A stretch of DNA of 64,000 bases from an uncultured Lachnospiraceae bacterium (GTDB taxonomy: Bacteria; Bacillota; Clostridia; Lachnospirales; Lachnospiraceae), in NCBI GenBank assembly GCA_944384125.1, contig CALWSF010000014.1, positions 1 through 64,000 on the forward strand. The letters run 5' to 3'. Within the stretch, counting starts at the first letter, position 1. Each line of letters starts with the position of its first letter. The notes under the pieces are model-generated. The model ran no database searches, had not been told where the DNA came from, and saw nothing but the letters and a program-made list of their open reading frames with translations. Positions 25,276-45,442 of the stretch are shown here, piece after piece. The translations under genes were made by a program, and so were the position numbers.

Positions 25276-26190
25276 TTAACCTCCTATTTTTGTGTTGCTA
25301 AACCCATGTTTCATAAATATATCTTTGAACAGTTCCATACGAGCTTTATCGGGGACTTTCAGGATGTCCTCCTCATATGGTCTGTCAAGCTTTCTGTATT
25401 TGTGCATTCCCGTATTGTGATAGGGAAGCAGATTTACCTGTTTTACACTGATTTGATTGGTCTGCAGGAAATCAATAACCCCGTTCATAAATTCTTCGGT
25501 GGCGTTAACGCCTTCGATGGTTGGAATACGGATATTAATTGTTGCACCGTCTGCGCTCAGCTTTTTCAGGTTTTCCAGAATCAGCTCATTGTCTACGCCG
25601 ATAAAATGTTTATGTACTTCCGGATCCAGTGCCTTGATGTCATACAGGAATGTATCTACATAAGGAAGAATCCTTTTGAAGTTTTCATAAGGTGCATAGC
25701 CGCAGGTATCAATGTTTACACTGTAGCCTTTGTTGTAAAGAACGCGGCAGAGCTTTTCAATGTAATCCATATTCTGGCACATAACTTCGCCGCCTGAAAG
25801 GGTAATTCCTCCGCCGGAATCTTCATAGAACATCCGGTCCTTGTCGGCTTCCTTGACCAGTTCCTGAATTGTGTACTCTTTTCCTGCAATCTCTCTTGCA
25901 TTCTGAAGACACCAGTCGGTACAGACGCCGCATGCTGTACATTTTTCGCGATCCATCACAAGTTTTCCATCCGTAATGGCATTGGCTCCGGTGGGACATC
26001 GCTTAACGCAGGCACCGCATGCTGTACAGCGGTCATGGAAAAGCATCAGTTCCTTCTGATAGCGCTGGCTTTCCGGATTGTGACACCAGATGCAGGAAAG
26101 GGGACATCCTTTAAAGAAAATACTGGTCCTGATTCCGTCTCCGTCATGTACGGAAAACTTCTGGATATTAAATACATATGGAGTGTCCAT
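25276..26190 (-). CDS. Glycyl radical enzyme activase for HypD (radical SAM)
   Basis: Uses S-adenosylmethionine and a [4Fe-4S] cluster to install the glycyl radical in HypD. The 304-residue protein has the radical SAM triad Cys29/Cys33/Cys36 in GCPLSCIWC, then a ferredoxin-like insert with two sets of four Cys (55, 58, 61, 65 and 84, 87, 90, 94), and GITLSGGE. Start 26190 is chosen because GGGAGGTT lies 9 bases upstream; the open frame reaches 56 codons farther without support. It is the first gene of the operon, and its stop codon overlaps the hypD ribosome binding site. Confidence 0.95.
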   Translation of the reverse strand: MDTPYVFNIQKFSVHDGDGIRTSIFFKGCPLSCIWCHNPESQRYQKELMLFHDRCTACGACVKRCPTGANAITDGKLVMDREKCTACGVCTDWCLQNAREIAGKEYTIQELVKEADKDRMFYEDSGGGITLSGGEVMCQNMDYIEKLCRVLYNKGYSVNIDTCGYAPYENFKRILPYVDTFLYDIKALDPEVHKHFIGVDNELILENLKKLSADGATINIRIPTIEGVNATEEFMNGVIDFLQTNQISVKQVNLLPYHNTGMHKYRKLDRPYEEDILKVPDKARMELFKDIFMKHGFSNTKIGG

Positions 26191-26219
26191 GATGCTTATA
26201 ACCTCCCTTTTTAGGAAAA

Positions 26220-26482: not shown

Positions 26483-26512
26483 TTGACAGCAAGGTTTTTT
26501 GCGTGCTATACT
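26483..26512 (+). promoter_or_regulatory. Promoter of tupABC
   Basis: TTGACA (26483-26488) and TATACT (26507-26512), 18-base spacer. The moeA promoter has the same boxes and spacing. Confidence 0.85.
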
Positions 26513-26543
26513 ATTCGCCGTACATAAAATCTGAAAAAACAAA

Positions 26544-26666
26544 TAATTTCGAGCTGTCTGGCCTAATGCTTAGTGCAGATGTACGGCGATGGCGGACAGC
26601 CAATGGGTGTCAGGGGAAACCTAGGTGCCTCCCGCATTTGGAAAGAAATGCATTGGAAAGAGATTA
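26544..26666 (+). promoter_or_regulatory. Moco/Tuco-type riboswitch upstream of tupA
   Basis: About 123 bases with P1 TAATTTC/GAGATTA closing the structure, an inner stem GCTGTC/GACAGC, the conserved core GGGTGTCAGGGGAAACC followed by GGTGCCTCCCG, and a 3' stem GCATT/AATGC. It closely matches the leader of moeA (29367-29487). The core is what I recall from the molybdenum/tungsten cofactor riboswitch candidate (MOCO_RNA_motif). Its presence before a tungstate transporter suggests cofactor feedback. No clear terminator follows before tupA; A/T-rich hairpins near 26690-26740 are weak. Confidence 0.88.
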
Positions 26667-26764
26667 ACAATAATGAAGAAGTAAATCAGACCAGCAGACT
26701 CTCTTTTCTGTGCCATTGTTTTTTTGGGAAAACAATTTAATAACTGAAGGGAGAGTACACTGAC

Positions 26765-27703
26765 ATGAAAAAATCAAGCAGAGTGATTGCACTGGCTGCA
26801 GCAGCCATGATGGCATTCTCCATGACTGCATGCTCAGGCGCAGCAGAGGAGACAACAGCAGCTGAGACGACAGCAGCAGCGGAGGAGACGACAGCGGCTG
26901 AAACAGAAGCAGCAGAGACAGAGGTGGCTGAGTCCGAGGCAGCAGCAGACGGAGAAGTTCTTCTGATGGCTACGACTACCAGCACGGATGACACAGGACT
27001 TCTGGATTACCTTAAACCTCTGTTCCTTGAGGATACGGGTATTGATCTGCAGTGGACGGCAGTTGGAACCGGAGATGCCATTCAGAAGGCAGAAGACGGC
27101 GAGGTTGATGTGATCCTCGTTCACTCCAAAGCCAAGGAAGAGGAGTTCGTTGAGAGCGGTTACGGTGTTGAGCGTTTCCAGGTTATGTATAATGACTTCA
27201 TTATTATAGGACCGAAGGATGGCCCCATTGCCAAGACAGATGATGTTGAGTCTGTATTTAAGCAGATCAGAGATGAGGAGCTGACCTTTGTATCCCGTGG
27301 AGATAATTCCGGTACACATAATAAGGAAACGGGAATCTGGGACAAGCTGGGAATTGAAGATTATGAGAGCAATCCCAACTATGTTTCCGCAGGTGCAGGA
27401 ATGGGCGATACCATCAACATGGCTGACGAGATGGGCGGATACTGCCTGTCTGATCGTGGAACATGGCTTTCCAGAAAGGCTGATTACCCGGATATGGACA
27501 TCGTATGTGAGGGAAGCGCCGATCTGCTGAACCAGTATGGTGTTATCGCTGTAAACCCGGAGAAGTATCCGGATGTGAACAACGAAGCAGCTAACAAGTT
27601 TATCGAGTGGATCTGCTCTCCGGAGGTGCAGACACTGATCGGAGAATACGGCGTAGAGGAATATGGCGAGCCGTTATTCTTCCCGAATGCAGAGCAGGAA
27701 TAA
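26765..27703 (+). CDS. tupA: Tungstate ABC transporter, substrate-binding lipoprotein
   Basis: Binds tungstate outside the membrane with high affinity. The signal peptide ends in a lipobox with Cys23 (SMTACSG). A low-complexity linker of A, E and T (about 24-62) tethers the binding domain, which begins with the TupA signature ATTTSTDDTGLLDYL (about 69-83); NSGTHNKE and GAGMGDT further on are also typical of TupA. 312 residues. The family separates tungstate (Tup) from molybdate (Mod) binders, but specificity is inferred. A terminator-like hairpin between tupA and tupB would leave tupA in excess. Confidence 0.93.
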   Translation: MKKSSRVIALAAAAMMAFSMTACSGAAEETTAAETTAAAEETTAAETEAAETEVAESEAAADGEVLLMATTTSTDDTGLLDYLKPLFLEDTGIDLQWTAVGTGDAIQKAEDGEVDVILVHSKAKEEEFVESGYGVERFQVMYNDFIIIGPKDGPIAKTDDVESVFKQIRDEELTFVSRGDNSGTHNKETGIWDKLGIEDYESNPNYVSAGAGMGDTINMADEMGGYCLSDRGTWLSRKADYPDMDIVCEGSADLLNQYGVIAVNPEKYPDVNNEAANKFIEWICSPEVQTLIGEYGVEEYGEPLFFPNAEQE

Positions 27704-27728
27704 AACACAGGGAAAGAATTTAAGACGG

Positions 27729-27770
27729 AGCCGGAGAGGTTAGACACACACTTCTCCGGCTTTCTTTTTT
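27729..27770 (+). terminator. Attenuator hairpin between tupA and tupB
   Basis: AGCCGGAGAg and TTCTCCGGCT pair and are followed by TTCTTTTTT. It lies inside the transporter operon and probably lowers tupBC transcription relative to tupA. Confidence 0.8.
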
Positions 27771-27851
27771 CTGGCAGTTTTTAGCGGGCGCTGAATGTCG
27801 GGGCATACCTTTTACAAAATGCGGCGGGATAAAGCGCAGGAAGGAATAATT

Positions 27852-28544
27852 ATGGAAGGAATGCAGCAGATATTTTCGGATTTTTTCAGCACGGTTGGTG
27901 TGGTTGACTCGATTCGCGTAACACTTATCATGTCGTTCTGGTCTACGCTGATAGCATCTCTGCTGGGGATTACACTGGGATTTGCGCTGGAAAGAAAGCA
28001 GTTTCCGGGGAAGCGGGCAGTTATACGTCTGAATCGGACACTTATGGGGGCACCGCCGGTTGTTATAGGTCTTCTGACTTATATGCTTCTGCGTAAGAAA
28101 GGCCCTCTCGGTTCTCTCAGATGGGTGTTTACCATCCAGGGTATGGTAATGGCACAGGTTCTGATTATTACGCCAATTATCTGCGGAATGGTGTATTCGT
28201 ATGCTGTTCAGAAGGCGCCGGCCATCCGGGCATTTGCAAAGACAATGGGGGCGGACAGAAAACAGACAGGTCGTCTTCTTCTGAGAGAAATGAAAAATGA
28301 ATTATATTTTGCGGTGGTTTCGGGATACGGACGCTCAATAAGTGAGGTCGGGGCCGTGTTCCTTGTGGGCGGCAATATTAAAAATAATACAAGAACGATG
28401 ACAACGGCTATTTCAACCCTTAAAGGGGCCGGAGACTACTATGAAGGTGTTTTTCTGGGGGTTATACTGATGCTGATGGCATTTGCCGTTCAGACCCTTG
28501 CAGATCATTTCAGAAAGGAGGAAACAGGGGATGAAAATTTCTAG
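27852..28544 (+). CDS. tupB: Tungstate ABC transporter, permease
   Basis: A 230-residue membrane permease with about five to six membrane segments and the EAA-type loop FAKTMGADRKQTGRLLLRE, which contacts the ATPase. GAPPVVIGLLTYMLL is typical of TupB/WtpB-type permeases. ATG 27852 has AGGAAGGA 6 bases upstream; an in-frame start 19 codons earlier has no such site. It overlaps tupC by 14 bases. Confidence 0.92.
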   Translation: MEGMQQIFSDFFSTVGVVDSIRVTLIMSFWSTLIASLLGITLGFALERKQFPGKRAVIRLNRTLMGAPPVVIGLLTYMLLRKKGPLGSLRWVFTIQGMVMAQVLIITPIICGMVYSYAVQKAPAIRAFAKTMGADRKQTGRLLLREMKNELYFAVVSGYGRSISEVGAVFLVGGNIKNNTRTMTTAISTLKGAGDYYEGVFLGVILMLMAFAVQTLADHFRKEETGDENF

Positions 28545-29235
28545 GCTTCAGAAAAAAATGGGCGATTTTTTCCTTAATATAGACAGTATGAAGCTGGAGC
28601 CGGGAAAGGTTCACGGACTCATCGGTTCCAACGGCTGCGGAAAAACAACATTATCAAAACTTATCATGGGGATTCTGACTCCTGACAGCGGAGAAATTGA
28701 TTATGAGGGACTCACTCCCCGTGATATTACGATGACCAGTCAGAAGCCCTATATGCTCCATGATACCGTGTATCAGAATCTGATATATCCTCTTACTGTC
28801 CGCGGTATCCGACCGGATGAAAAAGAAGCAGAGCAGTGGCTTTCAAGATGCGGCCTGCTGGACAAGAAAAATCAGTATGCCCGATCTCTGAGCAGCGGCG
28901 AACAGCAGAAGCTCTCATTTATCAGAGCAATGATATTTCATCCGAAGCTGATTATTGTGGATGAGACTCTTTCCAATCTGGATCCTGACAGCACGGAGCT
29001 GTTTGAAAAACTTATTCTGGAGCAGCAGGAGCAGGAACCGGTAACATGGATTGTAATAAGTCATCAGCTGGTGCATATCAGGAAGATCTGCGACAGAGTG
29101 AATTTTCTGGAAAAGGGAAGACTGCTTGCGGAGGGAACGCCGGAGGAAATTCTTATGCATCCCAGCCATCCGTCTGTGCGGGAATTTTTGTCCAAGACGG
29201 AAATCTTTTATCAGAACGACGGGGACACACAATAA
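28531..29235 (+). CDS. tupC: Tungstate ABC transporter, ATPase
   Basis: ATP-hydrolysing subunit, 234 residues. Walker A GSNGCGKTT (32-40), signature LSSGEQQ (120-126, a variant of LSGGQ), Walker B LIIVDE (140-145) and switch His in ISHQ. GAAAGGAGG lies before ATG 28531. The gene begins within the end of tupB, so the two are translationally coupled. Confidence 0.93.
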   Translation: MKISRLQKKMGDFFLNIDSMKLEPGKVHGLIGSNGCGKTTLSKLIMGILTPDSGEIDYEGLTPRDITMTSQKPYMLHDTVYQNLIYPLTVRGIRPDEKEAEQWLSRCGLLDKKNQYARSLSSGEQQKLSFIRAMIFHPKLIIVDETLSNLDPDSTELFEKLILEQQEQEPVTWIVISHQLVHIRKICDRVNFLEKGRLLAEGTPEEILMHPSHPSVREFLSKTEIFYQNDGDTQ

Positions 29236-29301
29236 AATTTCAATCAATGTGAAAAAATAAACATATATTTTTATAATTATGAAATGAACTCGGATCAGCC
29301 G

Positions 29302-29331
29302 TTGACATTTTTTGTATGGTTGTGATATACT
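29302..29331 (+). promoter_or_regulatory. Promoter of the moeA operon
   Basis: TTGACA (29302-29307) and TATACT (29326-29331), 18-base spacer, same boxes and spacing as the tupA promoter. Confidence 0.85.
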
Positions 29332-29366
29332 TTTATCCGTAAGAAACAGTAAGAAATAAATACAGG

Positions 29367-29487
29367 TAATTTCGAGCTGTACTGTCCTAAGATGCAGAGA
29401 TGTGCATGACGGAGGGACGGCCATAGGGTGTCAGGGGAAACCCGGATGCCTCCCGCATTTTGTTGGTAATGCATTGGAAAGAAATTA
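29367..29487 (+). promoter_or_regulatory. Moco/Tuco-type riboswitch upstream of moeA
   Basis: Second copy of the leader seen before tupA: P1 TAATTTC/GAAATTA (a G-T pair in the first copy is A-T here, so pairing is kept), core GGGTGTCAGGGGAAACC with GATGCCTCCCG, and GCATT/AATGC. An extra stem, ATGCA/TGCAT, lies in the variable arm near 29392-29407. A strong terminator 134 bases on could act as the expression platform. Confidence 0.9.
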
Positions 29488-29620
29488 CTCTTTGTCTTCC
29501 CTGAAAGTGAAAAAAATTTCAGGTCACAAGAGAATTTGTTTTCCGCGGATGCCGCAGCCGGGTAAAAGGTTGCCTGTGAAACAGAATAGCTGTCTGTCTG
29601 GTTTGAGATAATAAAGAACC

Positions 29621-29681
29621 GGAGGCTGAACACGGAGAATATATGTCCTGTGCGGACATTTTCCGTGCAGCCTCCTTTTTT
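29621..29681 (+). terminator. Terminator in the moeA leader
   Basis: GGAGGCTGaaCACGGA pairs with TCCGTGCAGCCTCC, with an inner TGTCC/GGACA stem, followed by TTTTTTG. It lies between the riboswitch and moeA, so read-through is probably controlled. Confidence 0.9.
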
Positions 29682-29728
29682 GTTCGGTAAAGGGATGGCA
29701 GCTTAAAGGCGCGGAAAGGAATGGTAGT

Positions 29729-30961
29729 ATGAAGTTATTGCAGGTAGATACGCTGGAAGGTGTGAGAAAAAAGCTGCTTGCTGCTGACGGGATGCCGGAA
29801 CCGGAGACGGAGACAGTCTCTCTTTCGGATGCTTTCGGAAGAATCCTGGCGGAAGATATAAAAACAAAGGAGGCGATTCCTTCTTTTCGGCGATCCAGCG
29901 TGGACGGCTATGCCGTCTGTTCCAAAGATACGGCAGCTGCCACAGACAGCATTCCGGTATTTCTGGAAGTCGTTGAGGAGATTCATATCGGACATCCCGC
30001 TGTGAAAAAGATTGTGCCGGGAACATGTGCCTATGTGCCTACGGGAGGAATGATTCCTGAAGGGGCAGATGCCATGGTAATGGTAGAATACTGCGAGATG
30101 TTCGATGAAAAACATGTGGCTGTCTGCAGCGCGGCTCCGTTTGGGAGCTATGTGGTGGATATGGGAGAGGATGCCGGAGAGGGAGAGCTTCTCTTAAAAC
30201 GCGGAACAAGGATCGGACCGGCTGAGGCCGGGGTTCTGGCAGCAGCCGGAGCAGAGAGAGTTCCTGTATTTGTTCCGTGGCGGGTTACAATTCTTTCTAC
30301 AGGCGATGAGCTTGTCCCTGTGGGGCGGAACCCTTTGCCGGGGCAGGTCAGAGATATCAATACCTGGGCGCTTCAGGCATATGTACGGGACAGCGGCATG
30401 AAGACAGTAAAGGCAGCTGCTCTGGTGGACGATGAGGAGCTTTTGGAAGCGGAAGTGCGCAGTGCACTTGCAGACAGCGATCTGGTTCTGATTTCGGGCG
30501 GCAGTTCTCAGGGAAAAAAAGACAAGACCAATGATATATTAGATAAAGTTTCCCATGGAGGTGTATTTACTCACGGACTGGCGCTAAAGCCGGGAAAACC
30601 GACCATTCTGGGATGTGAAAGTGAAAGTCGCACTCTTCTGGCAGGGCTTCCGGGGCATCCTGTGGCGGCCCTGACAGTTTTTCAGCTTTTAATTGTGTGG
30701 CTCTGGCGGGAGAAAACGGGACAGACTGAGCCTGTGCGGACAGTTGCCCGCATGAAGACCAATCTGGCCAGCGCACCTGGAAAAACCACATGCCTTCTGG
30801 TACGGCTTGACTGGGATGGAAACGGGTATGTAGCGGAGCCTATTCTGGGAAAATCGGGACTTATTACGACCATGGCACAGGCAGACGGCTATGTGATGGT
30901 GGATATGAACCGGGAAGGGCTCAAAAAGGATGAGATTGTTCCGGTTTACCGGTTTTCTTAA
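29729..30961 (+). CDS. moeA: Molybdopterin molybdenumtransferase (metal insertion), MoeA
   Basis: Inserts molybdate or tungstate into adenylylated molybdopterin. The 410-residue protein has the full MoeA layout: N-terminal domains with RRSSVDGYAV (about 54-63) and PTGGMIPEGAD (about 97-107), the MogA-like domain with ILSTGDELV, ISGGSSQGKKD and LKPGKPT, and the small C-terminal domain. First gene after the riboswitch and terminator. A second, larger MoeA follows 17 bases on; one of the pair may be tuned to tungsten. Confidence 0.93.
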   Translation: MKLLQVDTLEGVRKKLLAADGMPEPETETVSLSDAFGRILAEDIKTKEAIPSFRRSSVDGYAVCSKDTAAATDSIPVFLEVVEEIHIGHPAVKKIVPGTCAYVPTGGMIPEGADAMVMVEYCEMFDEKHVAVCSAAPFGSYVVDMGEDAGEGELLLKRGTRIGPAEAGVLAAAGAERVPVFVPWRVTILSTGDELVPVGRNPLPGQVRDINTWALQAYVRDSGMKTVKAAALVDDEELLEAEVRSALADSDLVLISGGSSQGKKDKTNDILDKVSHGGVFTHGLALKPGKPTILGCESESRTLLAGLPGHPVAALTVFQLLIVWLWREKTGQTEPVRTVARMKTNLASAPGKTTCLLVRLDWDGNGYVAEPILGKSGLITTMAQADGYVMVDMNREGLKKDEIVPVYRFS

Positions 30962-30978
30962 AGGCAGGGGAGACAACT

Positions 30979-32883
30979 ATGGGAAAAAGAAATTTATATT
31001 TGAAAAATACGCCGGTGGATGAAGCACTGGCTGTCTATACAGAGGCTCTGAGTCGGATTCTGGAACCGCAGATGGAGGAGATTCCGGTAACGGAGAGCCT
31101 TAACAGAGTTACCTGGGAGGCTGTATATGCAAAGTACTGCTCTCCCCTCTATAATGCCGCTGCAATGGATGGAATTGCGGTGGAAGCAGAACGGACAAAA
31201 GGGGCCAGTGAACGGGAGCCCATGGTTCTTTATCCGGAAAATGATTTTACGGTAGTAGATACAGGGGATCCGATCCGGACTCCCATGGACGCTGTGATTA
31301 TGGCGGAGGATCTGATTGAAAACGGGGATGGTTCTGTCAGCATTACTGCTGCTGCGGCTCCATGGCAGCATGTCCGTCCCATCGGGGAAGATATTGTGGC
31401 GGGAGAGATGCTTCTTCCCAGCCGCCATTCGATCCGTCCCATTGATATAGGAGTGCTTCTGTCCGGAGGAATTACCCGGATAAAAGTATACAGACAGCCG
31501 GCGGTGGCGATTTTTCCGACAGGAACAGAGATTATTGAGCCGGGTACAGAACCGAAAGACGGAGATATCATAGAATCCAATTCAAGGATGTTTGAAGCCA
31601 TGGTTCGGGAGCACGGGGGAGTTCCATGCAGGTTTGCTCCTACTGCAGATGATTATGAATTGCTGAAATCCCGTGTTTCGGAGGCAGTGGAAAAATTTGA
31701 TATGGTTATTGTCAATGCGGGCTCCAGTGCAGGAACGGAGGATTTCACAGTGCATGTGCTCCGCGAACTGGGGGAGGTTCTGATTCACGGTGTGGCTGTC
31801 AAGCCGGGAAAACCTGTTATTCTGGCGATTGTCCGCGGAAAGCCTGTGATTGGTCTTCCGGGATATCCCGTATCAGCATATATAAATTTTGAGAACTTTG
31901 TTATTCCCGTTCTGTCAATGCTTAATGGACAGACACAGGGAAATTCCCGGAAGGTGGAGGCCGTTGTTTCAAAAAGGCTGGTGTCCTCACTCAAATACCG
32001 GGAGTATGTCCGCGTGAAGGTAGGGCGTGTTGATAATAAACTGGTTGCTTCGCCCCTGGCCCGCGGGGCAGGGGCGGCGATGAGCCTGGTACGGGCTGAC
32101 GGCTTCTGTGTGATTCCCCAGAACAGCGAGGGAGTAGAGGCGGGAGAGCCGGTTGAAGTGGAGCTTTACCGCAGTATGGATGAGATTGATCACACGGTGG
32201 TAGCCATCGGAAGTCATGATCTGATTCTTGATGTGATGGCGGATCTGATGCCGTCCTGCTTTCCGAACAATTATCTGTCCAGTACGCATGTGGGCAGTAT
32301 GGGCGGTCTGATGGCGCTGCGCAGAGGGGAAGCGCACATTGCCCCGACTCATCTGCTGGATGAAGAGACGGGAAGTTATAACATACCGGTTTTAAAGAAG
32401 CTTTTTTCTGAACCCATGGCTTTGATAAAAGGTGTGGATCGTATCCAGGGTATTCTGGTTGCAAAGGGAAATCCCCTTGGAATCCGGGGGATTGAGGACC
32501 TTCCGGGTGTGCGCTACGTTAACAGACAGCGGGGCGCCGGAACGAGGGTTCTTCTTGACTATAAACTGAAGCAGGCGGGAATAGCACCTGAGGATATCCG
32601 GGGCTATGAGAGGGAGGCGGCTACTCACATGGCAGTGGCTGCGGCCATTGCAGGCGGAAGTGCTGATGCCGGTATGGGAATTGAGTCAGCGGCCCGGGCT
32701 ATGGATCTGGATTTTGTTGAAGTAGGTCCGGAGGAATATGATTTTGCTGTTCCGGTAAGATTTCTGGAACTTCCCCATGTCAGATGTTTTCTGGAGGTTC
32801 TTAAAAGCCGGGAGTTTGCAGAACGCGTTCAGCAGCTGGGCGGCTACTCACTGAGGCAGACAGGAGAAATTATTTATCTGTAA
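30979..32883 (+). CDS. MoeA fused to a C-terminal periplasmic-binding-like domain
   Basis: Of 634 residues, about 1-405 form a MoeA domain (NAAAMDGIAV, IFPTGTEI, NAGSSAGTEDF, VKPGKPV) and about 410-630 form a PBP-like module (VAIGSHDLILDVMADLM, STHVGSMGGLMALRRGEAH, NRQRGAGTRVLLDYKL, AVAAAIAGGSADAGMGI) resembling molybdate/tungstate-binding or ModE-associated proteins. There is no signal peptide, so the binding module is cytoplasmic. It may hold the oxyanion or sense its supply for insertion. This fusion is known in Clostridia; its exact job is not settled. It lies between moeA and a MOSC gene. Confidence 0.9.
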   Translation: MGKRNLYLKNTPVDEALAVYTEALSRILEPQMEEIPVTESLNRVTWEAVYAKYCSPLYNAAAMDGIAVEAERTKGASEREPMVLYPENDFTVVDTGDPIRTPMDAVIMAEDLIENGDGSVSITAAAAPWQHVRPIGEDIVAGEMLLPSRHSIRPIDIGVLLSGGITRIKVYRQPAVAIFPTGTEIIEPGTEPKDGDIIESNSRMFEAMVREHGGVPCRFAPTADDYELLKSRVSEAVEKFDMVIVNAGSSAGTEDFTVHVLRELGEVLIHGVAVKPGKPVILAIVRGKPVIGLPGYPVSAYINFENFVIPVLSMLNGQTQGNSRKVEAVVSKRLVSSLKYREYVRVKVGRVDNKLVASPLARGAGAAMSLVRADGFCVIPQNSEGVEAGEPVEVELYRSMDEIDHTVVAIGSHDLILDVMADLMPSCFPNNYLSSTHVGSMGGLMALRRGEAHIAPTHLLDEETGSYNIPVLKKLFSEPMALIKGVDRIQGILVAKGNPLGIRGIEDLPGVRYVNRQRGAGTRVLLDYKLKQAGIAPEDIRGYEREAATHMAVAAAIAGGSADAGMGIESAARAMDLDFVEVGPEEYDFAVPVRFLELPHVRCFLEVLKSREFAERVQQLGGYSLRQTGEIIYL

Positions 32884-32919
32884 AAATATATTACATTTAT
32901 CGCGGAGGGAGGACGAAAA

Positions 32920-33384
32920 ATGGAGGGAACCGTAAGGGCACTTCATGTATTCCGGGAACGGGGACACCCGGGAGAAAGTGTAGACAGTGCGCTCTTTCAG
33001 GCGGAGGCAGGTATGGAGGGGGATTGCCATGCTTCCGGGGGAGAGCAGCAGGTAACACTGCTTGCCGGAGAGGCGCGTGACTGGATGAAAGCCCAGACAG
33101 AGCCGGGTCTTTGTTTTCGCAGATACAGGGCCAATATTGAAACGGAAAATTTTGATACAGGAGCACTGGCTCCAGGCACTGTTCTGAAAATTGGAACGGC
33201 GGTTTTAAGGGTATCCGGTGCAAAGAAGCACTGTTTTCCCGAATGCCGCCTGTTTCAGAATGGCCGGGAATGCTTTCTTTCTCAGGGAGCGCTTTTTCTG
33301 CAGGTTATTCAGACGGGAGAAATTTCTAAAAATGATAAAATAATGATAGGAGGAGTCGAAAGTGAAGCGATTAGAAAAGGATGA
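32920..33384 (+). CDS. MOSC domain protein (first of two)
   Basis: A stand-alone MOSC (Mo-cofactor sulfurase C-terminal) domain of 154 residues. Markers are GMEGDCHASGGEQQVTLL (about 31-48), RANIET (about 70-75) and KKHCFPECRLFQ (about 97-108) with the conserved cysteine. MOSC proteins handle sulfur or the cofactor itself. GGAGGGAGG lies before the ATG. Its end overlaps the ferredoxin gene by 23 bases. Its partner could be the neighbouring oxidoreductase. Confidence 0.85.
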   Translation: MEGTVRALHVFRERGHPGESVDSALFQAEAGMEGDCHASGGEQQVTLLAGEARDWMKAQTEPGLCFRRYRANIETENFDTGALAPGTVLKIGTAVLRVSGAKKHCFPECRLFQNGRECFLSQGALFLQVIQTGEISKNDKIMIGGVESEAIRKG

Positions 33385-33748
33385 ATCCCTGTGCATTGGC
33401 TGCCGTCAGTGCGAGGAGGCATGTTCAAAAGCATTTTACAAAGTTGCGGATTCTGCAAAATCCTGTATCCGCATTACGGATCGGGAGGACGGAACTCATG
33501 GGATTGCTGTGTGCACACAGTGCGGAAAATGTGCTGAGGTGTGCAATACAGGTGTGATTACGGCAGATGCCAAAGGCGTTTACCGCCTCAATAAAAAAGA
33601 GTGTGCCGGATGCCTGATGTGTGTAGGCTTCTGTCCGGAGAATGTAATGGTTCAGTGCGATGATTATCTGGAGCCGTCTAAATGTACCGCGTGCGGTCTG
33701 TGCGTGAAGGCATGTCCCACAGGTGCAATTCGGATTGTTGAAGAATAG
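33362..33748 (+). CDS. Four-cluster ferredoxin, probable small subunit of the oxidoreductase
   Basis: A 128-residue protein with sixteen cysteines in four CxxCxxCxxxC sets: 11/14/17/21, 51/54/57/61, 81/84/87/91 and 108/111/114/118. It should carry four [4Fe-4S] clusters and pass electrons from the oxidoreductase encoded 11 bases downstream. The pairing resembles the YdhY-YdhV and tungsten oxidoreductase small/large subunit arrangements I recall. The start is GTG 33362, set by AGGAGG 8 bases upstream. Confidence 0.92.
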   Translation: MKRLEKDESLCIGCRQCEEACSKAFYKVADSAKSCIRITDREDGTHGIAVCTQCGKCAEVCNTGVITADAKGVYRLNKKECAGCLMCVGFCPENVMVQCDDYLEPSKCTACGLCVKACPTGAIRIVEE

Positions 33749-33759
33749 GAGGACATGAG

Positions 33760-35982
33760 ATGATAAGAATGTGTGATTTGCCGCGTTATGCTGATGCGGA
33801 TATGGAAGAAATCAAAAAAATGAAAGAGGCCCATGAGGTCTTAAATCAGGTTACATACGATCCTACGCCTCTGCATCGCGGCTATACCGACAAACGCCTG
33901 AAAATTGATGTGACGGACAATTCTGTAAGCATTATTGATATTCCGCAGGAGGTAAAGGAGAAATTTACAGGCGGAAAGGGATACTGCCTGCGCTATCTGT
34001 GGGATGCCACAAATCCGGATACAAAATGGAATTCTCCTGAAAATGCCATTACCATGTCCGCAGGCCCCATCGCGGGAATTACTCAGTACGGCGGAACGGG
34101 AAAATGCCTTGTCTGCACGATCTCTCCCATGACAGATATTCCGATTGACTCCAACGTAGGAGGATATTTCGGACCCTTCTTAAAGTTCTCCGGTTTTGAT
34201 GTAATTGAGCTTACCGGAAAAGCAAAAGAGGACGTTATTATTGTCATTGACGGAAATAAGGGAACTATCTCCATCGAGAAGGCGCCGCTGGAGCACAAGG
34301 ATGCTCATATTCTGGGCGAGGAACTGACCGCTATGTATGCGGAGGATGAAAATGACAGAAAGAATGTCGCAGTTGTCTGCTCCGGTTCAGCTGCAGAGCA
34401 CTGCAATCTGTCCATGCTCAACTTTACATTCTACGATCCCAAGAGAAATGTTGTTCGTCTGAAACAGGCCGGAAGAGGCGGAATCGGACGTGTGTTTGCT
34501 GACAAGCACATTAAGGCTCTGGTGTGCCATTTCCGCGGGGTTAAGGCAAACCTGAATGATGTATACGATATCAAGATCATTAACAAAGACGGTCTGAAAT
34601 TCCACCGTGAAGTGGCTACACAGGATGACAAACAGAACTCCATGAGAAAGTCCGGTACGGCTTATTCCATCAGAACCCTCAGTGATTATGATATTCTTCC
34701 GACTCACAACTATAAGTACGGCGGAACTGATAAGGTAGATGAAATGGCTCCTGAGGTCTGGAGAGAGAAATGGCTGACACAGGGCGGTGCAGACGGCTGC
34801 TGGTATGGCTGTTCCATGGCCTGTGCTAAAACAGCAGATCATTTCCTTTTGAAGACAGGTCCTTACAAAGGACACCGCGTCTGTGTAGATGGTCCGGAGT
34901 ATGAGAGTGCAGCAGGTCTCGGACCCAACTGCGGCATCACAGATCCGCAGGTTATCCTGGAGCTTAACTTCTACTGCGATACTTATGGAATTGATACGAT
35001 TTCCTATGGTACCATGACAGCATTTCTGATGGAGTGCTATGAGAACGGTATTCTTAATAAAGAGAGAACAGGCGGCCTTGAGCTTGTATGGGGCAATGCG
35101 GAGGCAGATCTTGAGATGCTTCACCAGATGGCGAGAAATGAAGGATTCGGAAAGATTGCAGCTCTGGGCGCTCATAAACAGAAATTATATTTTGCAGAGC
35201 AGGGCTGGGGCGATCCGGCATTCTTAAATGATATTGCCATGGAGCAGAAAGGTCTTGAGTATTCCGAGTATGGCTGTAAGGAATCCCTTGCACAGCAGGG
35301 TGGATATGGTCTGACCAACAAGGGACCGCAGCATGATGAGGCATGGCTGATCTTCATGGATCAGGTAAACAACCAGATCCCGACCTTTGAAGACAAGGCT
35401 GAGGCACTTTACTATTATCCGATGTTCCGTACCTGGTTCGGTCTTCTGGGTCTGTGCAAACTTCCGTGGAACGATATCGTTCCGGCAGATAACAGTCTGA
35501 CAGATGAGCCTGCAAAGGTGCCGGAGCATGTTGACAATTACCTGGATCTGTATTACGGTGTAACGGGAACTAAGATTGACAGAGATGATATGATCCGTAT
35601 GTCAGAGAGAGTTTACAATTTCCAGAGAATTTTCAATATCCGTCTTGGAAAGGGACTCAGAAAGAATGATGCGATTCCGTACCGTTCTCAGGGACCGGTA
35701 ACGGAGGAGGAGTATCTCTCCAGACAGGAGCGCTATGACAGACAGCTGGTGGATCTGGTAGGTTATACGCGTGAAGAAGTGGAGAAGATGACTCTGAAGG
35801 AAAAGATGGCTGCTACGAGAAGGCACAGAGAGTCTGAGTATGAGAAGCTGATCGACGCTGTTTATCCGAAGCGCGGATGGACTCTGAACGGCGTTCCTAC
35901 CGTTGCTCATCTGAAAGAGCTGGGAATGGATCTTCCGGAGCTTCTTGAGATCGTGGAGCCTCTGCAGGATGTGCAGCCGTGA
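33760..35982 (+). CDS. aor: Tungsten-containing aldehyde ferredoxin oxidoreductase family protein
   Basis: Large subunit (740 residues) of the AOR family, which binds a W- or Mo-bispyranopterin and one [4Fe-4S] cluster and usually oxidises aldehydes to acids. N-terminal part: FTGGKGYCLRYLW (69-81) and AGPIAGITQYGGTGK (101-115). Cluster ligands: Cys347, Cys351 and Cys355 (CWYGCSMAC) plus late Cys566 (LLGLCKLPW). The C-x3-C-x3-C spacing differs from the C-x2-C-x3-C of Pyrococcus AOR as I recall it. The first 40 residues are an extension. Codon use differs slightly from its neighbours, as in a highly expressed gene. It is encoded with its ferredoxin and MoaD-like carrier. Confidence 0.92.
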   Translation: MIRMCDLPRYADADMEEIKKMKEAHEVLNQVTYDPTPLHRGYTDKRLKIDVTDNSVSIIDIPQEVKEKFTGGKGYCLRYLWDATNPDTKWNSPENAITMSAGPIAGITQYGGTGKCLVCTISPMTDIPIDSNVGGYFGPFLKFSGFDVIELTGKAKEDVIIVIDGNKGTISIEKAPLEHKDAHILGEELTAMYAEDENDRKNVAVVCSGSAAEHCNLSMLNFTFYDPKRNVVRLKQAGRGGIGRVFADKHIKALVCHFRGVKANLNDVYDIKIINKDGLKFHREVATQDDKQNSMRKSGTAYSIRTLSDYDILPTHNYKYGGTDKVDEMAPEVWREKWLTQGGADGCWYGCSMACAKTADHFLLKTGPYKGHRVCVDGPEYESAAGLGPNCGITDPQVILELNFYCDTYGIDTISYGTMTAFLMECYENGILNKERTGGLELVWGNAEADLEMLHQMARNEGFGKIAALGAHKQKLYFAEQGWGDPAFLNDIAMEQKGLEYSEYGCKESLAQQGGYGLTNKGPQHDEAWLIFMDQVNNQIPTFEDKAEALYYYPMFRTWFGLLGLCKLPWNDIVPADNSLTDEPAKVPEHVDNYLDLYYGVTGTKIDRDDMIRMSERVYNFQRIFNIRLGKGLRKNDAIPYRSQGPVTEEEYLSRQERYDRQLVDLVGYTREEVEKMTLKEKMAATRRHRESEYEKLIDAVYPKRGWTLNGVPTVAHLKELGMDLPELLEIVEPLQDVQP

Positions 35983-36176
35983 AGCTGAACAACCGTCCCT
36001 ATGCGGACTGGCATGAGGGACTTACAATCCGGGGCGTCATGGAACACATGAATTTTACCTGGCCGAAACTGGTGGTAAAGGTAAACGGTCAGCTTATCTG
36101 GCCGGAGGACTATGACAAGGTAGTTCTGAATGAGGATGACGACCTGAAAATCCACCATTTACTGGGGGGCGGCTGA
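35979..36176 (+). CDS. MoaD/ThiS-family sulfur carrier
   Basis: A 65-residue ubiquitin-like protein (MKLNNRPYADWHEGLT...) ending LLGGG, with the C-terminal Gly-Gly needed for activation as thiocarboxylate. It would provide sulfur for the dithiolene of molybdopterin, or be a dedicated carrier for the oxidoreductase. The GTG start overlaps the aor stop (GTGA), so translation is coupled. The E1 activator is encoded next. No MoaE partner is found in this window. Confidence 0.85.
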   Translation: MKLNNRPYADWHEGLTIRGVMEHMNFTWPKLVVKVNGQLIWPEDYDKVVLNEDDDLKIHHLLGGG

Positions 36177-36205
36177 TAAACCGAATAGAGTGGCCGGCAA
36201 AAAGA

Positions 36206-36240
36206 GAGGGAGAACTGCAGGGCGGGACTCCCTCCCTTTT
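36206..36240 (+). terminator. Weak attenuator hairpin between the MoaD-like and E1 genes
   Basis: GAGGGAG and CTCCCTC pair around a 15-base loop, followed by CCTTTTC. Probably partial termination inside the operon. Confidence 0.5.
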
Positions 36241-36273
36241 CATATATGTACTGAAAAATGGAAGGAGAGAAAA

Positions 36274-37029
36274 ATGGAAGGACGCAGTCTGGAGAGAGAG
36301 CGGTATAAACGCCATCTGATTCTTCCTGATGTGGGGGAAGAAGGACAGGAAAAACTGAAAAATGGACGTGTTCTGGTTGTGGGAGCAGGAGGACTTGGCT
36401 CTCCGGTGTGCCTTTATCTGGCAGCGGCGGGGGTCGGAACAATCGGAATTGCCGATTTTGACAGGGTGGACATAAGTAATCTGCAAAGGCAGGTTCTTTA
36501 CTGTGAAAAAGATGTGGGAAAAAGAAAGGCGGAGGCGGCGGCAGAGCGCCTGCGCCAGATGAACAGCACTCTGAAGGTTCTCACATATGGGGATGGAGTC
36601 ACGAAAGAGAATATATCACAGATTATAGAAGGTTATGATGTGATAGTGGATGCGTCAGATAACTTCCGTACCAGGTACCTTCTGAGTGATGCCTGCGTCA
36701 GAATGGGAAAGCCGGATGTGTACGGGGCGATCTGTGAGTTTTCCGGACAGGTAACCGTATTTACAAAGGATGGTCCCTGTCTGCGCTGTCTGAGCCCGGA
36801 TGAGCCGGAAACAGAGGTACCGGAGGCATCCGGTTTTGGTGTTCTGGGGGCTATTCCGGGAGTGATTGGCTGCATTCAGGCTGCGGAGGTGCTGAAACTT
36901 CTTTTGGGAACAGGAGACAGTCTTGTGGGGCGGATGCTGTTTGTGGATTTAAAGTCAATGAGTTTTGACGAGATGGAAATAGGGGCAAATCCCAGATGCA
37001 CCTGCGCATCGTTTCACCGTCTGATTTGA
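36274..37029 (+). CDS. MoeB/ThiF-family E1-like adenylyltransferase
   Basis: Adenylates the C-terminus of the MoaD/ThiS carrier encoded just before it, priming it for sulfur transfer. 251 residues. The nucleotide loop is VVGAGGLGSP (35-44), the acidic site is DFDRVDISNLQRQ (61-73), and a zinc site is formed by CLRC (about 172-175) and a late CTC. It lacks a rhodanese domain. ATG 36274 is supported by AAGGAGAG; the frame is open 28 codons farther upstream, across the attenuator. Confidence 0.9.
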   Translation: MEGRSLERERYKRHLILPDVGEEGQEKLKNGRVLVVGAGGLGSPVCLYLAAAGVGTIGIADFDRVDISNLQRQVLYCEKDVGKRKAEAAAERLRQMNSTLKVLTYGDGVTKENISQIIEGYDVIVDASDNFRTRYLLSDACVRMGKPDVYGAICEFSGQVTVFTKDGPCLRCLSPDEPETEVPEASGFGVLGAIPGVIGCIQAAEVLKLLLGTGDSLVGRMLFVDLKSMSFDEMEIGANPRCTCASFHRLI

Positions 37030-37120
37030 TAAAATATATCTGTTCTGAAATGCTTTCTGCTTCATGCAGGGCTGTGCTGTCGATTTTATCTGCAAGAACA
37101 AAGAAGTTCATCAAAAAAGG

Positions 37121-37149
37121 ATGACATTCGGGAAAAAAAACGATATAAT
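37121..37149 (+). promoter_or_regulatory. Promoter of moaC-moaA-MOSC-mogA
   Basis: ATGACA (37121-37126) and TATAAT (37144-37149), 17-base spacer. No riboswitch copy is seen in this 180-base gap, so this sub-operon is controlled differently from tup and moeA. Confidence 0.65.
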
Positions 37150-37210
37150 ATGAAAAACATAGTGTTGTTTTTCACATACAGGAAAAAGTGTCAGAGAAGA
37201 GGGAGTATAC

Positions 37211-37687
37211 ATGGAACAGAAACTGACCCATTTTGACGCGGAGGGAAATGCTGTGATGGTGGACGTGTCCCAGAAGGACATAACAAGCCGTACGGCAGTG
37301 GCATCAGGGAAAATATGGGTAAATGAGGCAGTTATGGAAGCTGTGCTGGCGGGAACCGTTGCGAAGGGCGATGTGCTCGGCGTGGCACGGGTGGCCGGCA
37401 TTATGGCTGTAAAACAGACATCCGGTCTTATTCCCATGTGTCACACACTGCTGATTACAAAATGCAGTGTGGATTTTGAGATTGACCGGGAGAATCTTGC
37501 GATTAAAGCGATCTGTACGGCAAAGACAGACGGAAAAACAGGTGTGGAGATGGAGGCCCTTACAGGAGTCAGTGTGGCGCTTCTTACCATATATGACATG
37601 TGCAAGGCGATTGACAAGCGGATGGAGATGGGGGAGATCCATCTTGAGACGAAATCCGGAGGAAAGAGCGGAGATTTTGTGCGATGA
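37211..37687 (+). CDS. moaC: Cyclic pyranopterin monophosphate synthase
   Basis: Acts after MoaA to form cyclic pyranopterin monophosphate from GTP. 158 residues, with the active-site strings MCHTL (76-80), [12 protein letters not shown] (108-119) and YDMCKAIDK with Asp129. Its end overlaps moaA by four bases (ATGA). Confidence 0.97.
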
Positions 37688-38664
37688 TTGACGGAGTGGG
37701 AAGAAATATTGATTATATTCGGATATCTGTGACGGATCGCTGCAATCTTCGCTGTGTCTACTGTATGCCGGAGGAAGGAATTGAGAGCATTCCCCATGAG
37801 AGAATTCTCCGTTTTCAGGAAATTCTGCGTATCTGCAGAATTCTGGCCGATAACGGCATACGCAAGGTCAAGCTGACGGGAGGAGAACCTCTTGTGCGGC
37901 GCGGAATAGCTGATCTGGCTGCTCAGATTAAGGCTATAAATGGGATTGACAGCGTGACGATCACAACGAACGGCGTGCTGCTGGAGGAGATGTACGATCA
38001 GCTGGCAGATGCCGGGATTGATGCCATAACTGTAAGTCTGGATACACTGGATACAGAGGTGTTCCGCACTCTTACAAGGCGGAACGAGGCTGAACGGGTA
38101 AAGCGGGGACTTGCAATGGCTATAAAAAAAGGACGGGTGCCGCTGAAAATTAATTGTGTGCCGGTAATGGGGCTTGAAAAGCAGCAGCTTTCTGATATCG
38201 CTCTTCTGGCAAAGGATAATCCCGTTCATGTGAGATTTATAGAAATGATGCCTATCGGCATGGGGAGTCAGTTCCCCTTTGTCAGAGAGGACGAGCTGCG
38301 GGCTGCTCTGGAAAAGAATTTCGGGCTGTTTACGCCGTGTGATGATGTGGCGGGCAATGGGCCCTGTCATTATTTTGCGGTGGAGGGATTTAAAGGGCGC
38401 ATAGGATTTATCAGCGCTGTCAGTCATAAATTCTGTACGGAATGTAACCGTGTCCGTCTGACTGCGGAAGGATTTTTAAAAACCTGTCTTCAGTATGACT
38501 GCGGTGTAGAGTTAAAGCCGCTGCTGCGGTCGGGAGCTTCAGATGAAGAGCTGGAGCGTGCGATTTCACACGCACTGCAGAATAAACCTCTGGGCCATAG
38601 TTTTGGAGGCGGAGAGAAATTTGCAGGACGTGAACTGCGGGGAATGTCTCAGATTGGAGGATGA
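37684..38664 (+). CDS. moaA: GTP 3',8-cyclase (radical SAM)
   Basis: First step of molybdopterin synthesis. 326 residues with two clusters: the N-terminal radical SAM cluster Cys20/Cys24/Cys27 (CNLRCVYC) and the C-terminal GTP-binding cluster Cys251/Cys254/Cys268. TGGEPLVR (65-72) is typical. The C-terminus ends in Gly-Gly, which is needed for activity in known MoaA. Translationally coupled to moaC. Confidence 0.97.
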
Positions 38665-38669
38665 TAAAA

Positions 38670-39110
38670 ATGGGAAGAGTAGTAGCTACATGTACCAGTG
38701 ATATAAAAGGTGTTCAGAAGAAAAATGTGCATCAGGTAAATCTGATTGAAGATTTCGGGATTGAGGGCGACGCCCATGCGGGCAAATGGCACCGTCAGGT
38801 AAGCCTTCTGTCTTATGAGAAGATAGAAGAGTTTCGGGCCAGAGGTGCGGTTGTTGAGGATGGCGCATTCGGAGAAAATCTGGTTGTGGAGGGAATTGAC
38901 TTTAAAACCCTGCCCATCGGAACAAAATTCCACTGCAATGATGTGGTGCTGGAGCTGACACAGATTGGAAAAGAATGTCATCACGGATGTGCGATCTTTC
39001 AGGCTATGGGAGACTGCATCATGCCCCGTGAGGGTGTATTCACAAAGGTTCTTCATGGCGGTGTAATCCGCGAGGGAGACAACCTGGAAATTATGGAGGA
39101 AGAGGCATGA
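38670..39110 (+). CDS. MOSC domain protein (second of two)
   Basis: A stand-alone MOSC domain of 146 residues: EDFGIEGDAHAGKWHRQVSLL (early, about residues 25-45), AFGENLVVEGID (about 67-78) and IGKECHHGCAIF (about 100-111) with the conserved cysteine. It is closer to the common MoaC/MogA-associated MOSC proteins than the copy at 32920. GGAGG lies 9 bases before ATG 38670; a second in-frame ATG at 38661 overlaps moaA. Its stop overlaps the mogA start by four bases. Confidence 0.88.
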   Translation: MGRVVATCTSDIKGVQKKNVHQVNLIEDFGIEGDAHAGKWHRQVSLLSYEKIEEFRARGAVVEDGAFGENLVVEGIDFKTLPIGTKFHCNDVVLELTQIGKECHHGCAIFQAMGDCIMPREGVFTKVLHGGVIREGDNLEIMEEEA

Positions 39111-39592
39111 GAGTGGCAGTTATTACATCCAGCGATTCAGGTTATGCGGGAAAGCGCGAGGATGTCAGCGGGCCGGTAATAGAGGAACTGGTACAGGCCG
39201 CAGGGTATGAGGTGGTTTCAAAAACCATCCTGCCGGATGATTATGAAGCGCTCAAAAATGCACTTGCGGGAATCTGTGACAACAAAGAAGCTGATTTGAT
39301 TCTCACGACGGGCGGGACCGGTTTTTCGCCCAGAGATGTAATGCCCGAGGCGACGGCAGCCGTGGCGGAGCGCATGGTTCCGGGAATTCCTGAGGCGATG
39401 AGAGCCTACAGTATGCAGTTTACAAAGCGGGCGATGCTTAGCCGCGCAGCCAGCTGCATCCGCAAACAGACACTGATCGTCAATCTGCCGGGAAGTCCCA
39501 AGGCGGTAAGAGAATGTCTGGAATATATTCTGCCGGAATTAAATCATGGCCTTGAGATTCTTCTGGGAAAGACAGGAGAGTGTGCCAGATAA
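39107..39592 (+). CDS. mogA: Molybdopterin adenylyltransferase (MogA/MoaB family)
   Basis: Adenylylates molybdopterin before metal insertion by MoeA. The 161-residue protein has ILTTGGTGFSPRDVMPEAT (about 65-83) and a late NLPGSPKAVRE (about 125-135), both standard. It could be called MoaB; the two are not separable by eye. The start overlaps the MOSC gene (ATGA). Last gene of the cofactor locus. Confidence 0.93.
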   Translation: MRVAVITSSDSGYAGKREDVSGPVIEELVQAAGYEVVSKTILPDDYEALKNALAGICDNKEADLILTTGGTGFSPRDVMPEATAAVAERMVPGIPEAMRAYSMQFTKRAMLSRAASCIRKQTLIVNLPGSPKAVRECLEYILPELNHGLEILLGKTGECAR

Positions 39593-39687: not shown

Positions 39688-39733
39688 AGAGCGATACGAG
39701 ATTATATCATGTCAGACGAGGAGTATGAAGACA

Positions 39734-40327
39734 ATGGCTAGGGGAAACAACACAAAGGCAAAAATTGCTCGTGTTGCGTGGAAGTTATTCCATGAAAAAG
39801 GTTATGATGAGACTACGATAGATGAGATTATCCTGCAGTCCGGGACATCTAAAGGGAGCTTTTATCATTATTACAGTGGAAAAGACGAGCTTCTGGCGGC
39901 ACTGCCGGAGATATTCGATGCAAAGTACGAGGAAGTTATCCAGACACTGGATCCGGAGATGGACAGCTTCGAGAAACTGATGATCCTGTGTTACAGTGTG
40001 CACGATCTGATTGGCGACGAGATTCCTATGGGACTTTTGGCATCTCTCTACTCGTCACAGGTGGTTACAAAGGGCGATAAGCACCTTCTGAATCAGAACC
40101 GTTTTTACTATAAGCTGGTCAACCAGCTTGTGGATGAAGGACAGAGAAGAGGCCAGATTACGCGGAGTCTGCCATATTATGAGATTGCTCATCTTTATGC
40201 ACTCTGCGAGAGAGCTATTATTTACGATTACTGTATATCGAACGGAGACTATCCTCTGGGAGAGTATACACGGAGGACAATGCCTCTTATTTTCGGCGGA
40301 GTCCGGACAAAGAGAGAAACGGAATAG
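39734..40327 (+). CDS. TetR family transcriptional regulator
   Basis: A 197-residue repressor. The N-terminal helix-turn-helix is complete: AKIARVAWKLFHEKGYDETTI leads into EIILQSGTSKGSFYHYYSGKDEL (about 34-56). The ligand domain gives no hint of the effector. Start 39734 is taken because GAGGAG is 10 bases before it and only 1 base before the alternative ATG 39725. It probably controls the ATPase gene downstream. Confidence 0.92.
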   Translation: MARGNNTKAKIARVAWKLFHEKGYDETTIDEIILQSGTSKGSFYHYYSGKDELLAALPEIFDAKYEEVIQTLDPEMDSFEKLMILCYSVHDLIGDEIPMGLLASLYSSQVVTKGDKHLLNQNRFYYKLVNQLVDEGQRRGQITRSLPYYEIAHLYALCERAIIYDYCISNGDYPLGEYTRRTMPLIFGGVRTKRETE

Positions 40328-40355: not shown

Positions 40356-40398
40356 CAAGCATGTGCCGCAGAGTATAACTGCAGTGCATGCTTGTTTT
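40356..40398 (+). promoter_or_regulatory. Hairpin between tetR and the UvrA-like gene, possible attenuator
   Basis: Perfect 8-base arms CAAGCATG (40356-40363) and CATGCTTG (40387-40394), then TTTT. A third GCATGC lies just upstream and can compete for pairing, so two alternative structures are possible before the ATPase ribosome binding site. Confidence 0.5.
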
Positions 40399-40417
40399 GA
40401 CGTATGGAGGAGAAACC

Positions 40418-44270: not shown

Positions 44271-44281
44271 GTACACCTCCT

Positions 44282-45407: not shown

Positions 45408-45442
45408 GAAATACATACTCCTGATTCAGAAGGCACAAAACA

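Follow-up and report, generated by a model that had tools for sequence, protein, structure and literature searches.

Genomic neighbors and a conserved active-site shell point to glutamate semialdehyde as a candidate substrate of a tungsten-type oxidoreductase clade

Results and Discussion

The DNA analyzed here (the window) comprises positions 1 to 64,000 of contig CALWSF010000014.1 (GenBank assembly GCA_944384125.1), from an uncultured Lachnospiraceae bacterium in the same genus as Clostridium fessum (locus L020, genome G150); its genome assembly is 3.44 Mb and 94% complete. The window encodes WorL, a 740-residue catalytic subunit of the aldehyde oxidoreductase (AOR) family (33760–35982, + strand), and the adjacent ferredoxin subunit WorS (33362–33748, + strand). 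We propose that WorLS is probably a Class II tungsten-type glutamate-semialdehyde:ferredoxin oxidoreductase dedicated to Δ1-pyrroline-5-carboxylate (P5C) and its open form, glutamate-γ-semialdehyde (GSA). The neighbors of WorL's clade often make or use P5C, so conversion of P5C/GSA to glutamate is the enzyme's probable role, in preference to general aldehyde clearance. For the clade as a whole, which spans several bacterial phyla and archaea, we consider the case evenly balanced that it would be an anaerobic, ferredoxin-linked counterpart of P5C dehydrogenase. Such an enzyme would oxidize GSA derived from hydroxyproline (via the dehydratase HypD) or from proline to glutamate, yielding low-potential electrons, and in gut bacteria it would open a tungsten-dependent oxidative route for hydroxyproline from collagen.

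Genes of P5C and GSA Metabolism Accompany the WorL Clade

One genome per species was scanned for relatives of WorL, and the best 80 of 118 matches were kept (52–92% identity). They occur in Lachnospiraceae, Oscillospiraceae, other Clostridia, Bacteroidota, Ignavibacteriota, Chloroflexota, Atribacterota, Caldisericota/Cryosericota, Cloacimonadota, a Lokiarchaeon, and a Thermoplasmata bin; the last lies on a 3.9-kb contig of a metagenome bin (L095) and could be misbinned. A fast tree that also included 17 other AORs placed 98 rows (including the held-out sequences described below) in one strongly separated clade. Apart from cofactor genes, the recurrent neighbors of its WOR genes are those of P5C/GSA metabolism. 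With fixed thresholds, a P5C/GSA gene was found within ~10 kb in 28 of the 80 clade loci and in none of 40 loci of other AORs in those genomes; these controls were our own choice, on long contigs, of non-clade AORs among the matches listed. The genes found in the 28 loci were HypD (13), a proline dehydrogenase-type operon (10), P5C dehydrogenase (7), PutP (1; at its cut-off, 515.5 bits), and a proline racemase-like gene (1; below cut-off, 512.9 of 556 bits), all of which converge on P5C/GSA. HypD scored 1484.5 bits in L024 and 1260.5 bits in L094 (Cryosericota), P5C dehydrogenase scored 744–778 bits against TIGR01236 in the four loci tested (cut-off 613.6), and two P5C reductases scored 293.6 and 243.4 bits against TIGR00112 (cut-off 196.75). 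The arrangements differ: HypD and its activase immediately precede worS, on its strand, in L024, L025, L030, and L031, and WorL, P5C dehydrogenase, P5C reductase, and HypD share 17 kb in L037. A chance association with HypD was rejected on the basis of this recurrence in several arrangements.

The genes counted had been picked on the same loci, so the count was repeated on held-out clade AORs from 391 Clostridia genomes. This sample held 23 clade matches (≥47% identity) in 20 genomes, from which 20 loci were taken, leaving out the match in the window itself and both matches in G226 (whose places equal those in G186, the genome of L061). Removal of L162, a copy of L063, left 19, one of which (L171) is a 3.8-kb contig. 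Of these 19 clade loci, 13 had the dehydrogenase operon directly upstream, accompanied by PutP in two cases, versus none of 20 other AOR loci chosen by us from the same Clostridia (Fisher p 3e-6, ignoring kinship between genomes). Later reading of the other six loci revealed P5C reductase beside worS in two (L167 and L168) and 5-oxoprolinase in one. Together, all 60 of the other AOR loci examined with the same thresholds were devoid of proline genes, and in both samples the clade's link to P5C/GSA enzymes exceeded that of other AORs. The association with HypD extends to whole genomes. At E 1e-200, HypD was found in 17 of 20 Clostridia with a clade WOR; the corresponding numbers were 2 of 31 where all AORs lay outside the clade and 30 of 340 where no AOR matched. 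Above the curated cut-off the numbers were 15 of 20 for clade-WOR Clostridia and 28 of 371 for the others. Among all 51 clade genomes, 37 contain HypD at E 1e-200 and 34 above the cut-off, and in at least 10 it lies within 25 kb of the clade WOR.

The operon counted above encodes a multi-subunit DAO-type dehydrogenase. The nearest PDB relative of its flavoprotein (from L045) is 1y56_B, at 298.1 bits with the next at 145.8. The depositors named 1y56_B a sarcosine oxidase, and 1Y56 is cited as the L-proline dehydrogenase complex of P. horikoshii (PMC1949818; this and the other articles cited here are drawn on in part). In a different reading of the clade, the operon would encode a dehydrogenase of sarcosine or dimethylglycine, and WorLS would oxidize the formaldehyde that it releases. 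The subunits do match the sarcosine oxidase beta subfamily, far below its cut-off (220.1 of 529.45 bits); in the genome of the window the operon is followed by what appears by eye to be a BCCT-like transporter, and formaldehyde ferredoxin oxidoreductase (FOR) is the nearest fold to WorL. Against this stand the nearest solved relative, which is cited as L-proline dehydrogenase and scores twice the bits of sarcosine oxidase, and the neighboring PutP, HypD, P5C dehydrogenase, and P5C reductase genes, which do not fit formaldehyde metabolism. We regard formaldehyde oxidation as highly improbable.

HypD and Related Genes in the Window and Its Genome

In the window, a gene 8 kb upstream of worS (22816–25269, − strand) encodes HypD, trans-4-hydroxy-L-proline dehydratase, a glycyl radical enzyme that makes P5C. 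It scores 1484.8 bits against NCBIfam NF043068 (cut-off 1100) and is the only match in this genome at E 1e-200. Its radical SAM activating enzyme is encoded at 25276–26196 (− strand; NF043069, 446.9 bits, cut-off 425; Pfam Radical_SAM). The reading frame is open from 26358, and the match covers residues 60–360 of the longer frame, beginning near 26181. The HypD score of this glycyl radical enzyme also led us to reject a link to isethionate and acetaldehyde. The neighbor of HypD at 21569–22660 resembles, by eye, the ethanolamine transporter EutH. Elsewhere in the genome are a full dehydrogenase operon (G000:C34) whose flavoprotein resembles 1y56 (231.6 bits; 113.9 for the next relative), the operon that precedes the BCCT-like gene, and a PutP-like transporter below its cut-off (406 of 515.5 bits). 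Together with HypD and an unlinked P5C dehydrogenase, these genes make catabolism of proline and hydroxyproline plausible in this organism.

That P5C dehydrogenase (NAD type; G000:C5:7508-9139, 762.8 bits) is among several observations that, besides the choice of genes on the loci in which they were first counted, weigh against the proposed assignment. With it, glutamate could also be reached in this genome by a route other than the tungsten enzyme. P5C dehydrogenase occurs in 3 of 20 clade-WOR Clostridia (this genome and 2 of the other 19) versus 13 of 371 others, and it lies near WorL in seven loci. The WOR is thus not simply its replacement, and strict replacement was ruled out by this co-occurrence. 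None of the searched genes was present in the DNA examined for 52 of the 80 clade loci, some of which are on short contigs, and the held-out genomes are related to one another. HypD was unmatched at E 1e-200 in 14 of the 51 clade genomes, and in one of these, G164, a fragment of HypD sits at the border of L026. Among the matches listed, at least two non-clade AORs also lie near HypD, at 2 kb in G195 and 11 kb in G201; G195 is absent from the 40 controls, and the G201 HypD gene falls just outside the control stretch L122. The DAO-type subunits fall below every NCBIfam cut-off shown, so their substrate is not certain. Finally, L152 carries 5-oxoprolinase genes in place of proline genes. The G195 pair (C90, 8946–13330) comes from a Thermoflexia bin that is also the genome of L076. 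In L152 the stretch directly upstream of worS (4675–8168) encodes PxpABC, the 5-oxoprolinase, together with a gene that by eye may be a D-glutamate cyclase.

A Clade-Specific Shell Surrounds the Predicted Active Site

Residues were compared between 99 clade rows and 72 other AORs, with rows shorter than 480 residues (L092, L171, L190, and L113) absent from the alignment. Thr243, Glu313, Tyr427, and His448 of PfAOR correspond to T300, E382, Y504, and H525 of WorL, and the cluster cysteines align with C347, C351, C355, and C566. These PfAOR-type catalytic and cluster residues are kept in 98–99 of the 99 clade rows; T300, E380, Y381, E382, and H525 occur in all 99 and Y504 in 98. A further set of residues separates the clade from other AORs. 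Its members (clade rows of 99 versus other AORs of 72) are W348 (98 vs 0), K507 (99 vs 3), Q513 (99 vs 0), K521 (99 vs 0), D526 (99 vs 0), E527 (98 vs 0), W529 (99 vs 6), R557 (99 vs 12), and W570 (99 vs 4). Three or more of the six residues K507, K521, D526, W529, R557, and W570 were present in only 3 of the 72 other AORs. The first three cluster cysteines are spaced CxxxCxxxC in all 99 clade rows; in the stretch searched, 70 of the 72 other AORs contain CxxCxxxC and 13 also CxxxCxxxC. A shell that is nearly invariant across phyla would suit one specific substrate.

By sequence, WorL is distant from its solved relatives (best, 1aor, 167.8 bits). Its predicted structure has a pLDDT of 83.0, with low values at 345–354, 496–517, and 519–528, around the cofactor site. 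The best structural match is FOR from P. furiosus (1b25; 25% identity, TM 0.71 by query), and its lead over the next structure is narrow (E 3.9e-33 vs 6.2e-33). FOR and WorL share HxEAW after the catalytic histidine. Both also have C(K/R)LPW where the last cluster cysteine lies, a motif left unaligned by HMMER. Unlike WorLS, FOR is a homotetramer of one subunit; it was crystallized with glutarate, and the C5 compound glutaric semialdehyde has been proposed as its substrate (PMC12096430). The closeness of the fold to FOR, combined with FOR's binding of glutarate, helps the proposal that WorL oxidizes GSA.

The original prediction noted that gut AOR-type enzymes have been linked to aldehyde detoxification. 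On a general-detoxification reading, WorLS would resemble other gut WORs in using ferredoxin to oxidize a broad range of aldehydes from diet or metabolism, and its proline neighbors would be incidental. Characterized gut WORs act on many aldehydes (PMC13328260, PMC9424855), and the general catalytic residues are conserved in WorL. Against generic detoxification, the same proline genes recur in differing arrangements and phyla and, at the thresholds used, are missing from all 60 other AOR loci examined, and the shell is almost invariant from Clostridia to a Lokiarchaeon. With P5C/GSA neighbors in 28 of 80 loci of the first sample and 13 of 19 held-out loci, this part of the original prediction is probably wrong, and we judge general detoxification quite unlikely.

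Proposed Reaction and Its Implications

In the proposed pathway, HypD would dehydrate trans-4-hydroxyproline to P5C, the published function of its family, and P5C would open hydrolytically to GSA by published chemistry. At a bis-pterin tungsten site, WorL would then oxidize the aldehyde of GSA, giving L-glutamate; the charged, clade-specific shell would hold the distal carboxylate and the amino group. By analogy with Class II enzymes, electrons would pass from the [4Fe-4S] cluster of WorL through the four clusters of WorS to ferredoxin, and TupABC, MoeA, WorX, and MoeB would supply the metal cofactor. P5C may also be reduced to proline by P5C reductase. A hydroxyproline fermenter could therefore split P5C between two uses, as an electron acceptor that ends in proline and as a donor that yields glutamate and reduced ferredoxin. 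NuoF-like genes, a possible electron outlet recognized by eye, lie near the WOR in L163, L164, and L165; such genes also occur in the vicinity of other AORs (L114, L115, L117, and L190) and so are not specific to the clade.

The same pathway could involve another reaction, such as conversion of P5C hydrate to 5-oxoproline, oxidation of 4-hydroxyglutamate semialdehyde, or the reverse reduction of glutamate to GSA for proline formation. The placement of PxpABC in L152, of P5C reductase in L167 and L168, and of P5C dehydrogenase in seven loci speaks for such alternatives. Conversely, 5-oxoprolinase occurs in just 1 of 100 clade loci scanned, known WORs oxidize free aldehydes, and HypD takes off the 4-hydroxyl group and hence yields no hydroxy-semialdehyde. 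These alternatives appear rather unlikely, and oxidation of GSA to glutamate is the reaction we favor. The same net conversion is carried out by P5C dehydrogenase of the TIGR01236 type, which shares some genomes with the clade WOR. P5C dehydrogenase belongs to the unrelated ALDH family and is NAD-dependent and metal-free.

If correct, the assignment would provide a specific substrate for a clade without one found in print, and add a ferredoxin-reducing oxidative branch to the fermentation of hydroxyproline and proline. It would also connect the tungsten supply of the gut with collagen-derived amino acids and make physiological sense of glutarate binding by FOR. In the open-access literature (subscription papers and supplements lying outside this scope), no link of AOR, FOR, HypD, or tungsten enzymes to proline, hydroxyproline, P5C, or GSA was found; the hits included, by title, a plant and an Aspergillus article, and one text in which the terms occur separately. 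Proline and glutamate go unmentioned in the main text of PMC13328260, as far as available.

Relationship to Known WORs

Under the published classification, the sequences of WorL and WorS make them a predicted Class II WOR, defined as WorL plus an adjacent four-cluster WorS without further subunits (PMC13328260). WorS, immediately upstream of worL, carries four [4Fe-4S] motifs, and the annotated genes around the pair include no WorN, WorABC, or Tat/membrane subunit (absence of Tat by eye). The gene layout itself is thus already known. According to the available text of the same article, only two Class II WORs have been characterized, and a defined physiological role is known for an enzyme in only 5 of 92 WOR clades. 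Those two, PfASOR and CbGOR, likewise combine a catalytic subunit with a four-[4Fe-4S] ferredoxin subunit, have no adjacent NAD or bifurcating subunits, and oxidize sulfonates/aldehydes and glyceraldehyde-3-phosphate (PMC13328260). Unlike them, the WorL clade has its own active-site shell, the CxxxCxxxC cluster motif, and proline-pathway neighbors. The Class V WOR YdhV/YdhY of E. coli also pairs an AOR-family subunit with a four-cluster partner; the YdhV profile PRK09849 matches only residues 40–256 of WorL at 76.6 bits, far below its 868-bit cut-off, and WorS lacks, by eye, the Tat-like start. Clusters of AOR, MoaD/ThiS-like, MoeB-like, and 4Fe-S ferredoxin genes were described by Iyer et al. 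in 2006, with no substrate assigned in the portion of that article available (PMC1779556). Within the family, an AOR match was found in 10 of 150 genomes drawn, including that of the window, the other matches being 24–39% identical over the matched parts.

The Cofactor and Transport Block

WorLS is encoded in a block of fourteen genes (26765–39592, all on the + strand): tupABC, moeA, moeA-PBP, MOSC, worS, worL, worX, moeB-like, moaC, moaA, MOSC, and mogA. Most overlap or sit a few bases apart. Gaps of 493 bases after tupC and 181 bases before moaC make more than one transcript possible. The original prediction described a compact tungsten-cofactor locus around one aldehyde oxidoreductase, starting at 26483, upstream of the first gene. 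All the genes it named are present in the window, and WorL is indeed the only AFOR_N match in the whole genome. The block, or most of it, was found again in relatives, which places it beyond chance.

The first three genes encode the tungstate-binding protein TupA (26765–27703; Pfam PBP_like_2, 163.3 bits), the permease TupB (27795–28544; BPD_transp_1), and the ATPase TupC (28531–29235; ABC_tran), whose ATG at 28531 is preceded by a purine-rich stretch. The predicted Tup identity of TupA rests on family resemblance and gene order. They are followed by MoeA (29729–30961; MoeA_N, MoCF_biosynth, MoeA_C), a second MoeA with the same domains and a C-terminal PBP-like domain (30979–32883; PBP_like, 243.1 bits), and the first MOSC protein (32920–33384; 30.9 bits, cut-off 22.7). 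WorS matches Fer4 families and was correctly described as a 16-Cys ferredoxin, in the sense that 16 of its 18 cysteines lie within four CxxCxxCxxxC motifs. WorL exceeds the cut-offs for both AFOR_N (155.4 bits) and AFOR_C (328.4 bits). Overlapping worL by 4 bases is the gene for a 65-residue ThiS/MoaD-like sulfur carrier that ends in GGG (35979–36176); a ThiS-like neighbor of this kind is named WorX in PMC13328260. It scores 20.9 bits against Pfam ThiS (cut-off 22.5) and 34.0 bits against NCBIfam thiS (cut-off 37.45), and the MoeB/ThiF-like adenylyltransferase that follows (36190–37029; Pfam ThiF, 272 bits) reaches 207.4 bits against the MoeB equivalog cut-off of 376.55. The predicted genes for sulfur-carrier activation are therefore present, with both under curated cut-offs and the call a weak one. 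The block closes with MoaC (37211–37687; TIGR00581, 185.3 bits, cut-off 141.5), MoaA (37684–38664; TIGR02666, 352.3 bits, cut-off 284.05), the second MOSC protein (38661–39110; 50.3 bits), and a MogA/MoaB-type molybdopterin adenylyltransferase (39107–39592; MoCF_biosynth, 132.6 bits).

These genes had been read as one system for a tungsten enzyme. The Tup and pterin genes, the AOR, and the ferredoxin do form one recurring block with the published Class II layout, and that part stands. A pterin set reserved for tungsten is not supported: a genome-wide profile search identified three XDH-family (MoCoBD_1) proteins, and the XDH family consists of molybdenum-type enzymes. With molybdenum-type enzymes elsewhere in the genome, the pterin pathway need not be tungsten-only, and we rejected the tungsten-only reading. 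The same proteins bear on the suggestion that WorLS uses molybdenum in vivo, the metal proposed for E. coli YdhV, with Tup serving other needs, since molybdenum is probably handled in this organism too. Nevertheless, the Tup genes and the second MoeA share a block with WorL, and Tup is reported in virtually all hosts of Class I–IV WORs (PMC13328260). A molybdenum enzyme is improbable, and we retain the assignment of WorLS to the tungsten type.

The molybdopterin (MPT)/tungsten cofactor (Tuco) pathway encoded in this genome lacks a recognizable MoaE, a protein absent from the list of the original prediction as well; it was found neither in the locus nor in the 94%-complete genome with PF02391 or a profile of divergent MoaE. 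By the same two profiles, MoaE was unrecognizable in 41 of 51 clade-WOR genomes (this one and 40 of 50 others), a notable feature in itself, and MoaE of either kind was present in the other 10. A 4.36-Mb Lokiarchaeon contig (G182) belongs to a genome in which neither kind was found. A stand-in was sought and no candidate emerged; another MPT synthase partner may exist in the WOR genomes that lack MoaE. The divergent MoaE-like family itself (L105–L111) comprises proteins of ~130 residues in seven clade genomes, scores 28–37 bits against Pfam MoaE, and is well conserved among the five sequences aligned.

A TetR-type regulator adjoins the block (39725–40327, + strand; TetR_N), and clustering placed a relative in 10 of the 80 clade loci. 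On its 3′ side is a short UvrA-like ABC protein (40388–42685, by eye), with similar genes in L020, L023, L037, and L097. Farther along, a second radical SAM protein resembling glycyl radical activases (44511–45416) adjoins a BCCT transporter (42753–44276), with no glycyl radical enzyme seen alongside; the pair is kept in L020 and L097.

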